From Aquabacterium humicola (GTDB lineage: Bacteria > Pseudomonadota > Gammaproteobacteria > Burkholderiales > Burkholderiaceae_C): DNA of 64,000 bases. Below, piece by piece: positions 52,802-55,618 of the stretch (position 1 is the first letter of the stretch; every line of letters starts with the position of its first letter). A program made the translations under genes and the position numbers. Under the pieces are notes generated by a model. That model ran no database searches and was not told the origin of the DNA. It worked only from the letters and a program-made list of their open reading frames with translations. The stretch lies in NCBI RefSeq assembly GCF_030167915.1, contig NZ_JARGNB010000002.1:1116001-1180000 (forward strand), read 5' to 3'.

Positions 52802-53278
52802 TCACGCCGCGTAGCCCAGCGGCAGCGCGGTGGTGAACTTGATCTCCTCCATCGCGAAGCTCGACGACACGTCGAAGAGCTGCGTGCCGGCGATCAGCCG
52901 CTTGTAGACCCGGTCGTACGCGGCGATGTCCGGCACCACCACGCGCAGCAGGTAATCGACGTCGCCGCTCATGCGGTAGAACTCGACGACCTCCGGAATC
53001 GCCTCGACCGCGGCGCGAAAGCGGTCGAACCAGTCCTGGCTGTGCGTGCTCGTGCGCACCGAGACGAACACCGTCACCCCGACGTTCACCTTGTCGCGGT
53101 CGACCAGCATCACGTTGCGCGTGATGACCCCCGATTCCTTCAGGCGCTGCACCCGGCGCCAGCAGGGCGTCTGCGACAGGCCGACCTGGGCGGCGAGTTC
53201 GGCGATCGGCGTGTCGGCGGCTTGCTGCAGGATATCGAGCAGCTTGCGGTCGATGGAATCGAGTTTCTGGATTGGCAT
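52802..53278 (-). CDS. Lrp/AsnC-family transcriptional regulator
   Basis: A 158-residue Lrp/AsnC regulator: N-terminal helix-turn-helix (LDSIDRKLLDILQQAADTP, LAAQVGLSQTPCWRRVQRLKESG) and C-terminal RAM ligand domain (VVEFYRMSGDVDYLLRVVVPD). The short SQTPCWRRVQRLK is typical of the single-gene regulators close to DecR/YbaO. It is divergent from the cysteine desulfurase fusion gene, 87 bases apart, so it probably controls that gene. Sensing of cysteine or a related amino acid is an inference from the DecR family and the neighbour. Confidence 0.93.
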   Translation of the reverse strand: MPIQKLDSIDRKLLDILQQAADTPIAELAAQVGLSQTPCWRRVQRLKESGVITRNVMLVDRDKVNVGVTVFVSVRTSTHSQDWFDRFRAAVEAIPEVVEFYRMSGDVDYLLRVVVPDIAAYDRVYKRLIAGTQLFDVSSSFAMEEIKFTTALPLGYAA

Positions 53279-53330
53279 GTCAAAGGGAATGTGCTTCCAT
53301 GAATTGCAGGTTTCGAGCTCGATTTTGCAC

Positions 53331-53341
53331 GCGGATTCCGC
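53331..53341. promoter_or_regulatory. Palindrome between the Lrp and fusion genes
   Basis: GCGGA-T-TCCGC, a perfect inverted repeat with 5-base arms, lies in the 87-base divergent region, 25-35 bases before the fusion start. It may be an operator half for the Lrp regulator. Confidence 0.3.
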
Positions 53342-53365
53342 CTTGACTATCGACAATGGTGGCCC

Positions 53366-55618
53366 ATGGACATCTACCTCGACGCCAATGCCACCACCCC
53401 GGTGCTGCCGCAGGCCCAGGCCGCCGCGCTGGCGGTGATGGCCGAGGTCTACGGCAACCCGAGCAGCCTGCATGGCTCGGGGCTGAAGGCCCGGGCCCTG
53501 CTCGACGAGGTGCGCACGACCGCGCGCCGCGTGATCGGCGCCGAAGGCGGCGAGCTGTTCTTCACCAGCGGCGCGACCGAAGGCATCCAGACGGCGGTGC
53601 TGTCGGCGCTGACCGAGCTGCGCCGGCGGCGCGCTGCCGGCGATGGCCGCGCGCTGAGCCTGCTGTACGGTGCCACCGAGCACAAGGCCGTCGCCGAAGC
53701 GCTGAAGCACTGGAACGCGGTGCTGGCGCTGGACCTGCCGATCCAGGCCATCCCGGTGGGGCCGGATGGCCGGCATGACCTGCGCTGGCTGCGCGAGCAC
53801 GCGCCGCAGGCCGGCCTGGTCTGCACGATGGCCGCCAACAACGAGACCGGCGTGATCAGCGACCTGGACGGCATCGCCGCCGCGCTGGCCGGCAGCCCGG
53901 CGCTGTGGCTGGTCGACGGCGTGCAGGCGCTGGGCAAGCTGCCGCTGAAGCTGGTCGAGCGCCGCATCGACTACGCGCCGTTCTCGGGACACAAGCTCTA
54001 TGCGCCCAAGGGCGTCGGCCTGCTGTACGTGCGCGACGGTGCGCCCTTCACGCCGCTGCAGGCCGGCGGTGGACAGGAAGGCGCGCTGCGTGCCGGCACC
54101 GAGAACATGCCTGGCATCGCGGCGCTCGGCGCGGTGCTGCGGGCGCTGGCGGACGGCGAGACCTTCTGCGACGCGGCGACGCTCGCCCGCCATCGCGAGC
54201 GCCTGGCCACGGCCTTGCGCGAGGCCTTCCCGGGCATCGTCTTCAACGCGCCGGCCGCGCTGGCGCTGCCGACGACGCTGAACTTCTCGGTGCCGGGCCT
54301 GAGCTCCAAGCTGCTGCTCGACCTGTTCGATGCCGCCGGGCTGCGCGTCAGCGGCGGCTCGGCCTGCAGCGCCGCGGCGGCCCGCCCCAGTCACGTGCTC
54401 GAGGCGATGGGCCTGCCCGACTGGCAGACGCGGGCCGCTGTGCGCCTGTCCTTCGGTCCGGCCGATGGGGCCGGGCTGATCGAGGAAGCCTGCGACCGCA
54501 TCGGCGCCTGCGGCGCATCGCTGCGCGAGAGTTGCCTGAGCGCATCGGCGCCGGGCGCCGGCGGTGCGCAGACCCCCGTGCTGACGCGCTTCGTCGTGGC
54601 GGGCGCCTGCTGCTACATCGTCGCCGATGCCGCCAGCCGGCGCTGCGTCGTGATCGATCCCCTGCCGGAACTGACGGCGCGCATCGTCCAATGGGTGGGC
54701 TGCCGCGGCTTCACCGTCGCGGCGGTGCTCGACACGCACAGCCACGGCGACCACGCGTCGTCCGCCCAGGCGCTGCGCGCGGCCCTGGCGCCATCGCTGC
54801 TCGAAACGCACGCCGGCGATGCGCTCGGCTGGCCCGATGGTGCCAGCGCCCTCGTGCTCGGCCGCCACCGCCTGACGCGGCTGGCGGTGCCGGGGCACAC
54901 GGCGGACTCGACCGCCTACCTGCTGAAGGACGCGGAGGGCGCCTGTTTCGCCTTCGTCGGCGATACCGTGATGCCCGGCGCGCTCGGGCGCAGCGACTTC
55001 GCGCAGAGCGCGCCGCTGTCGTTCGCCGACTCCCTGCGCCGGCTCCAGGACGCCGTCGGGCCGCGCGCGCTGCTGCTGCCGGGGCACGACTACGACGACC
55101 ACTTCGCCTGCACGCTGGCCTCCGAACGCCTGCTGCAGCCGCTGCTGGCCGGGGCCCTCGACGCCGTGCTGCACGCCGAAGCCTTCGCCGCGGCCAAGGC
55201 GGACCTGGAGCGGCATGTGCCGCCCACCGCGTGCCAGACGATGGCCTGTGGAACGAGCGTCGGGGCCCGCGCCTCGCTGGCGAGCGTCGAACTGGACGGC
55301 GCGCAGCTGGACGCGATGCTCGCCGGCCCGCTGGCGCCGCTGGTGGTCGACGTGCGCGAATCCTACGAACAGCGCGTCGGCGCGCTGACGGTCCTCGAGC
55401 GGGGGGCGCTTCGTTCGGCCGACATCCGGCAGGTGCCGCTGTCGGCGCTGCTCGATGCCTTGCCGGACTGGCTGGCGCTGCCGGCGCAGCGGCCGCTGCT
55501 CTTCGTCTGTCGGGCCGGCAACCGCAGCGCGCAGGCCGCGCGGGCGCTGCGCCGCCTGGGGCACGCACAGGCGTGGAGCCTGCAGGGCGGCCTGGCCTTG
55601 TGGCCGCAGCCCGACTAG
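53366..55618 (+). CDS. Cysteine desulfurase - persulfide dioxygenase (ETHE1-type) - rhodanese triple fusion
   Basis: A 750-residue, single-frame protein with three enzyme domains. Residues 1-385 are a group I (NifS/IscS-like) desulfurase: His106 in TEHK, Asp184 and Gln187 for PLP, Lys210 in SGHK as Schiff base, and catalytic Cys334 in SGGSACSAAA. Residues about 400-640 are an MBL-fold ETHE1-type dioxygenase: THSHGDH (His458, His460, Asp462, His463), PGHTADS (His511), VGDTVMPGALGRSDF (Asp533) and LLPGHDYD (His574). Residues 645-750 are a rhodanese with loop CRAGNRS (Cys715). All key residues are present, so all three steps can be active: cysteine to alanine plus persulfide, persulfide transfer, and oxidation to sulfite. 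Function is inferred from domain families. Confidence 0.9.
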   Translation: MDIYLDANATTPVLPQAQAAALAVMAEVYGNPSSLHGSGLKARALLDEVRTTARRVIGAEGGELFFTSGATEGIQTAVLSALTELRRRRAAGDGRALSLLYGATEHKAVAEALKHWNAVLALDLPIQAIPVGPDGRHDLRWLREHAPQAGLVCTMAANNETGVISDLDGIAAALAGSPALWLVDGVQALGKLPLKLVERRIDYAPFSGHKLYAPKGVGLLYVRDGAPFTPLQAGGGQEGALRAGTENMPGIAALGAVLRALADGETFCDAATLARHRERLATALREAFPGIVFNAPAALALPTTLNFSVPGLSSKLLLDLFDAAGLRVSGGSACSAAAARPSHVLEAMGLPDWQTRAAVRLSFGPADGAGLIEEACDRIGACGASLRESCLSASAPGAGGAQTPVLTRFVVAGACCYIVADAASRRCVVIDPLPELTARIVQWVGCRGFTVAAVLDTHSHGDHASSAQALRAALAPSLLETHAGDALGWPDGASALVLGRHRLTRLAVPGHTADSTAYLLKDAEGACFAFVGDTVMPGALGRSDFAQSAPLSFADSLRRLQDAVGPRALLLPGHDYDDHFACTLASERLLQPLLAGALDAVLHAEAFAAAKADLERHVPPTACQTMACGTSVGARASLASVELDGAQLDAMLAGPLAPLVVDVRESYEQRVGALTVLERGALRSADIRQVPLSALLDALPDWLALPAQRPLLFVCRAGNRSAQAARALRRLGHAQAWSLQGGLALWPQPD

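Follow-up and report, generated by a model that had tools for sequence, protein, structure and literature searches.

Cysteine desulfurases (CD), ETHE1-type persulfide dioxygenases (PDO) and rhodaneses (Rhd) are each known, and so are the pairings of CD with Rhd and of PDO with Rhd. Here we analyse a 750-residue protein in which all three follow one another on a single chain, encoded in a 64,000-nucleotide stretch of Aquabacterium humicola (contig NZ_JARGNB010000002.1, positions 1,116,001 to 1,180,000), which we call the window. Judged from comparison with its relatives, the protein is a real, conserved and functionally coherent fusion of three enzymes.

The CD-Rhd of Pseudorhodoferax was described by Selles et al. 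(2022) as a homodimer of 54 kDa with the rhodanese cysteine at Cys466; according to its authors it is the most efficient CD characterised, and it prefers L-cysteine over thiosulfate as donor (PMC8931425). Sulfur passes from CD to Rhd, and loss of the Rhd cysteine cuts CD activity about 10-fold with glutathione (GSH; PMC8931425). The catalytic cysteine of its CD is Cys334, and the enzyme is the sensing part of the cysteine biosensor CyReB (PMC12319549). The CD-Rhd of Pseudorhodoferax sp. Leaf274 (WP_056898193.1) resembles the window protein in the N-terminal CD, the single C-terminal rhodanese and the CD Cys334. No dioxygenase is reported in it, the word "dioxygenase" being absent from the main text of PMC8931425, whereas in the window protein an intact PDO separates CD and Rhd, and the rhodanese cysteine is shifted by 249 residues. 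The window protein is thus not of the CD-Rhd type, in which a chain of about 54 kDa passes directly from CD to Rhd, since a PDO of about 200 residues intervenes.

The second kind of relative is represented by BpPRF of Paraburkholderia phytofirmans (PDB structures 5ve3, 5ve4 and 5ve5), a single chain in which a rhodanese comes after a PDO. In both sequence and fold it ranks first among the matches to the C-terminal half of the window protein, but it lacks a desulfurase and shares 24-27% identity. The metallo-β-lactamase (MBL) fold is likewise joined to rhodanese domain(s) in 3r2u of S. aureus, which we take to be CstB, and in 3tp9 of Alicyclobacillus; both are without desulfurase and have 16-20% identity to the window protein. 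CstB converts persulfide to thiosulfate (PMC9774590). From the whole PDO-rhodanese type (PRF, CstB, Blh) the window protein is set apart by its additional N-terminal CD.

The first-pass annotation of this DNA, made from the letters alone, knew of no description of the three-domain order. For the trio as such this stands as far as the open-access literature goes: no description was found among the matches listed, most subscription journals lying outside the scope of the search. It does not extend to the CD-Rhd pairing, which is both published (PMC8931425) and in use in a biosensor (PMC12319549).

Domain layout of the fused protein

The open reading frame (ORF) occupies positions 53366-55618 of the forward strand, starts with ATG, is uninterrupted by stops and lies in the interior of a contig of at least 1.18 Mb. 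Three Pfam families match above their gathering scores: Aminotran_5 at residues 3-365 (E = 2.2e-51), Lactamase_B at 416-574 (4.4e-10) and Rhodanese at 647-746 (2.1e-8). The group I CD domain comprises residues 1-385 (53366..54520), with Lys210, the lysine that holds pyridoxal phosphate (PLP), at 53993-53995 and the catalytic Cys334 at 54365-54367. The PDO domain, delimited by a profile of intact members, spans residues 403-604 (54572..55177) and contains the motif H458/H460/D462/H463 (54737-54754), followed by H511 (54896-54898), D533 (54962-54964), R542 (54989-54991), H574 (55085-55087) and Y576 (55091-55093). A linker with Cys628-Gly629 (residues 605-645; 55178..55300) leads to the single Rhd domain (residues 646-748; 55301..55609), whose catalytic Cys715 (55508-55510) begins the loop CRAGNR (715-720), in agreement with the pattern CRxGxR. 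All these features are on the plus strand. The first-pass annotation had seen one frame with the intact active sites of three families, and every residue it named is in place.

Group I CDs are recognised by a PLP lysine within SGHK and a catalytic cysteine in a GSAC loop; the corresponding K210 and C334 are found in all 119 proteins of the comparison set introduced below. The closest solved chain to the CD domain is the NifS-like 1ecx (E = 2.1e-57), its best matches among solved chains, in sequence as in fold, are NifS, IscS and NFS1, and its top NCBIfam model is NifS (268.8 bits against a cut-off of 530.75; IscS, 173.6 against 643.2), in line with the earlier assignment to group I. A phmmer search with the PDO and Rhd domains retrieves BpPRF (5ve3) first (E = 3.2e-23), then Myxococcus ETHE1 (4ysb) and human ETHE1 (4chl), and the Blh sulfur-transferase/dioxygenase model gives the window protein 43.6 bits (cut-off 625). 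As the NifS, IscS and Blh scores all lie below their cut-offs, the protein belongs within these superfamilies without being assigned to any of the named enzymes. K210, C334, H458, H460, H511, D533, H574 and C715 are invariant across the 62 rows of an alignment restricted to intact proteins with all three domains.

A pattern scan in which each species was represented by one genome yielded 386 relatives of whatever kind; the best 80 loci were kept. The full-length frame is unbroken in 78 of them, in independent assemblies; the two dropped are L066, with the frame split into two ORFs, and L075, at a contig end. All ten relatives from outside the window's order have the same three-domain order and keep H458, H511, D533 and H574 at 43-51% identity. 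Within the order and beyond it, these unbroken frames rule out the notion that assembly or annotation has joined neighbouring genes; with the identical layout recurring in so many independent assemblies, the probability of such an artefact is practically nil.

The iron-binding triad expected of a PDO (2-His-1-Asp) is present as H458, H511 and D533. Twelve core residues were considered, namely the triad, its second sphere and the two glutathione-binding residues common to all PDO types, with roles taken from the PDO of Acidithiobacillus caldus (AcPDO; PMC6060420) and mapped by us onto the window protein, which has 12 of 12. The HxHxDH motif would also suit a two-zinc hydrolase such as glyoxalase II, and the NCBIfam model GloB indeed gives a weak match (55.8 bits; cut-off 200.8). 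Such an identity is nevertheless very improbable, as a GRxDF-type motif is present, PDOs outrank glyoxalase II in sequence and fold matches, and the second metal site (D462/H463) is changed in 3 of the 10 members from outside the order with the iron triad kept, as expected for a one-iron enzyme and not for a two-zinc hydrolase.

AlphaFold2 predicted the whole chain with pLDDT 89.3 and pTM 0.89 (60-row alignment) and residues 398-750 with 92.3 and 0.92 (58 rows). Cysteine desulfurases and selenocysteine lyases make up the best 50 of 1828 PDB matches of the whole-chain model, none of which aligns over more than 409 columns. The model of PDO and Rhd matches BpPRF first over its length (5ve4, 5ve5 and 5ve3), but with rmsd 16-17; ETHE1-type proteins come next (TM-scores relative to target length, 0.73-0.76), and no glyoxalase II appears before rank 23. 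The good domain matches together with the poor full-length superposition suggest that in the predicted structure PDO and Rhd are placed relative to each other unlike in BpPRF.

Intact, eroded and dioxygenase-less forms

The comparison set consists of the window protein and 118 distinct relatives, identical proteins being counted once. It leaves out the second copy in genome G360 and the copy on a third Pseudoalteromonas plasmid (H3), and includes L153, missed by blastp, matched by phmmer and added by hand. On the basis of length and of the three iron ligands (H458, H511, D533), 79 of the 119 proteins were classed as intact, 23 as eroded and 17 as lacking the PDO; L064 was scored intact on its three ligands although part of its PDO domain is absent. 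Lys210, Cys334 and Cys715, kept in 81/81 proteins of the first alignment, are kept in 119/119 here, across all three forms. The ten proteins from outside the order (L135-L142, of the same class according to the taxonomy of the genome collection, and L143 and L144, from Pseudoalteromonas plasmids) are all intact, and the three from another family of the same order (L005, L006, L153) are all eroded.

The dioxygenase is the dispensable part of the fusion, eroded or lost in some lineages with CD and Rhd intact. Among the 79 intact proteins, 65 have all twelve core residues, nine have 11, two have 10, two have 9 and one has 7; eroded proteins retain 2 to 6. Since H458, H511 and D533 defined the intact class, the remaining nine residues constitute the independent evidence. 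Measured against the CD, eroded domains change about twice as fast as intact ones. When nearest relatives with 75-95% identity in the CD were paired so that no protein was used twice, the MBL/CD ratio of differences had a median of 1.82 in 33 intact pairs and of 3.63 in 9 eroded pairs (Mann-Whitney p = 0.0005), while the Rhd/CD ratio was 1.88 in both. The middle domain is thus constrained when intact and relaxed after loss of the ligands, with the pace of the rhodanese unchanged.

Extra cysteines are conserved in intact members: C415 in 76 of 79, C446 in 73 and C628, in the linker, in 76. The 23 eroded domains have C415 in 20 cases, C446 in 17 and C628 in 2.

Two of the proteins without PDO, L115 and L117 (501 aa), carry their catalytic cysteines at precisely the positions published for the CD-Rhd, Cys334 and Cys466, and from this shared numbering the Pseudorhodoferax enzyme looks like a PDO-less form of the window family. 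The published enzyme, on which the biosensor is based, would in that case be just one among several relatives that lack the oxidising domain, and the three forms allow a direct comparison of what a PDO adds to a desulfurase and of whether the fusion limits the release of sulfide.

The three classes were fixed before any tree was made, from residues outside the columns used for the tree. On the tree of the CD domain the forms are intermixed, with 9 changes of state for the 119 proteins and 10 when 71 of them are combined with 14 nearer outgroups; if only the strongly supported branches are counted, each form still requires 4-5 changes. A single clade of all intact proteins is rejected (p-AU 0.00024; 71 of the 119 proteins with 14 of 28 outgroup desulfurases), as is a single clade of all PDO-less proteins (p-AU 0.00016; same set), and these two tests reject both one single gain and one single loss of the dioxygenase. 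The position of the root varies with the outgroup: one distant outgroup leaves the intact proteins from outside the order outside the rest, and 14 nearer stand-alone desulfurases leave some PDO-less proteins there. Whether the ancestral form had two domains or three therefore depends on the outgroup chosen. Among intact proteins the pairwise identities of the three domains covary (Spearman 0.83-0.85), in better agreement with a single, old protein of three domains than with fusions that occurred repeatedly. Repeated erosion and loss of the PDO is the simplest reading, with transfer between lineages a conceivable alternative history.

Two proteins stand in the tree among Comamonadaceae- or Roseateles-type relatives, at odds with the titles of their records: L081 (Pantoea sp. 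18069) and L046 (a Methylotenera sp. metagenome-assembled genome). Wrong record names, mixed bins or gene transfer may account for their placement.

Regulator and proposed route of cysteine sulfur

Divergently from the fusion, on the minus strand, lies a gene for a regulator of Lrp/AsnC type (52802..53278; 158 aa; Pfam AsnC_trans_reg and HTH_AsnC-type). Compared with three E. coli proteins, it has 49% identity to DecR (149 residues), 36% to Lrp and 30% to AsnC; being nearer to DecR than to the other two, it is DecR-like. Salmonella YbaO is presumably the counterpart of E. coli DecR. Cysteine induces the Salmonella gene cdsH, which encodes a cysteine desulfhydrase, and this induction requires YbaO (PMC7767077). 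The gene beside the regulator of the window encodes a desulfurase fusion and not a cysteine desulfhydrase.

A relative of this regulator adjoins 67 of the 119 copies divergently, at a gap of 85-240 bases: 47/79 intact, 6/23 eroded and 14/17 PDO-less copies (three of the loci without it had less than 700 bases upstream). Anywhere in the flanking DNA compared, a relative is found in 54/78 intact (the window left out), 6/23 eroded and 14/17 PDO-less loci. The 87 bases between the two genes in the window (53279..53365, strand not assigned) include the imperfect inverted repeat GGAAT-GTG-CTTCC (53286..53298, strand not assigned), a candidate operator. In the 59 of the 67 intergenic regions that are shorter than 140 bases, GGAATNNNATTCC with at most one mismatch is found in 15, against 0.36 in shuffles, and the inverted repeat GGAAT-N3-ATTCC with at most two mismatches in 30, against 4.8, 27 of the 30 being at one offset. 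Since the repeat was read off the same alignment in which it was tested, and the species are related, the candidate operator is a lead and not proof.

On this evidence the window protein is probably a cysteine-catabolic, persulfide-oxidising enzyme under control of a DecR-like regulator. The CD, with PLP on Lys210, would convert L-cysteine to alanine and leave a persulfide on Cys334. The rhodanese would take over this persulfide at its Cys715 and hand it on to a small thiol, for instance glutathione. The iron-dioxygenase (His458, His511, Asp533) would then use O2 to oxidise the small-molecule persulfide to sulfite, to which the rhodanese could add a second sulfur, giving thiosulfate. Excess cysteine would thereby be removed with little free sulfide. 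The first two steps are published for the two-domain relative; the last two, induction by cysteine and the physiological role are inferred, as is the running of all steps in sequence within one protein. If this is true, a complete oxidative route for cysteine sulfur is present on one chain, built upon a desulfurase type that is unusually fast (PMC8931425). The earlier proposal that one chain could lead from cysteine to alanine and sulfite or thiosulfate is supported by the residues conserved and by the published transfer of sulfur from CD to Rhd. Its corollary, that persulfide is never released, finds no support: the glutathione persulfide that known PDOs convert to sulfite is a free small molecule (PMC6060420, PMC12856154).

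Several observations weigh against this role. No relative of the regulator stands divergently beside any of the ten intact copies from outside the order, and DecR, Lrp and AsnC as queries retrieved nothing from these ten loci at E ≤ 1e-8. A divergent relative is likewise missing from 21 further intact copies whose upstream DNA extends over 1500 bases or more, 7 of which have one elsewhere nearby, and from 15 of the 23 eroded copies, where there is room for one. The window genome has another PDO-like gene (G000:C42:246260-247120; 316-aa frame) with 379.7 bits to the Blh model (cut-off 625), and Blh matches, all below the cut-off, occur in 13 of 14 control genomes; the PDO of the fusion would therefore not be the only persulfide route of the genome. 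Finally, 40 of the 119 copies have no intact dioxygenase and keep CD and Rhd, so that the conserved core function does not depend on oxidation.

The last point suits an enzyme that primarily traffics sulfur, supplying persulfide for transpersulfidation or biosynthesis, with the dioxygenase as a safety valve for the surplus. Catalytic residues of CD and Rhd are indeed invariant throughout the set in which the dioxygenase is lost or eroded 40 times, transpersulfidation has been demonstrated for CD-Rhd (PMC8931425), and in 18 loci a gene for a UPF0176 rhodanese follows the fusion closely on the same strand (for example at 2815-3630 of L120, minus strand; median gap 7 bases). These loci are mainly of the eroded group (14 eroded, 3 PDO-less, 1 intact). 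We regard a trafficking enzyme as rather unlikely, the adjacent DecR-like regulator pointing instead to cysteine detoxification. Of the conserved clusters of neighbouring ORFs, 40 of which were listed, nine representatives were scanned with Pfam; the UPF0176 rhodanese is the sole recognisable sulfur gene among them and four have no match, so the argument from the neighbourhood on this alternative is weak.

The substrate of the dioxygenase bears on the proposed oxidation of a glutathione persulfide in another way. Residues that bind glutathione in Type I PDOs count against that substrate: R190 of AcPDO maps to L593, with Leu in 77 of the 79 intact members, and at the approximate position of K212 Lys is not among the four commonest residues, which together cover 72 of the 79. 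Judged by these two positions, the PDO of the window would fall outside Type I. Cysteine persulfide, or the protein-bound persulfide of Cys715 or Cys334, might accordingly serve in place of glutathione persulfide, with the Type I residues missing, two universal ones and the catalytic core remaining, and the extra C415, C446 and C628 present in 73-76 of 79 intact members. This substitution is rather unlikely, as the glutathione contacts common to all PDO types, the Arg of GRxDF and a Tyr (R163 and Y197 of human ETHE1; PMC6060420), are kept as R542 in 76 and Y576 in 73 of the 79. A more specific version, quite unlikely in our opinion, is that the dioxygenase oxidises the persulfide formed on the enzyme itself, at Cys715 or Cys334 and with Cys628 or Cys415 as possible relays, in a closed route from cysteine to sulfite with no free thiol; if true, the substrate of this persulfide dioxygenase would be a protein.

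Distribution and further genes

The first-pass annotation had proposed a search for the spread of the architecture. Counting the window genome and requiring E ≤ 1e-100 for family and order and E ≤ 1e-75 for class and phylum, we found members of the protein family in 46 of the 299 genomes sampled from the taxonomic family of the window (20 with intact PDO, 9 eroded, 17 with none), in 4 of 300 in the order sample, in 1 of 369 in the class sample, which was the window genome itself, and in 10 of 398, including the window's, in the phylum sample. The class sample gave the window genome alone although the phylum sample held copies from outside the order, so that beyond the family these frequencies are only approximate. 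At E ≤ 1e-100 there is no match in any of the four further members of the window's genus that the family sample lists. In a sample of 150 genomes the closest stand-alone desulfurases score far below the fusions (best E 3e-62).

Among the three Pseudoalteromonas plasmids with the fusion, one has it annotated as "aminotransferase class V-fold PLP-dependent enzyme", and on two it is unannotated. Some genomes have two copies: Roseateles caseinilyticus (L019 and L054), Ramlibacter sp. WS9 (L031 and L064), with one copy intact and the other partly reduced, and G360, with one intact copy and a 705-aa frame in which the match ends at residue 590.

The window genome has three PF00174 molybdopterin oxidoreductase matches above the cut-off, a possible sink for sulfite; some are found in 9 of the 14 control genomes as well. 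A molybdopterin oxidoreductase also occurs in one frame with a NifS-type cysteine desulfurase in L164 (1-2658, plus strand), according to Pfam, with 885 aa on the stretch compared and 1137 aa in the genome; L177, L187 and G1051:C161 have similarly long frames (1143-1181 aa) with a desulfurase. The fusion in L164 possibly joins the desulfurase to a molybdoenzyme whose cofactor it sulfurates.

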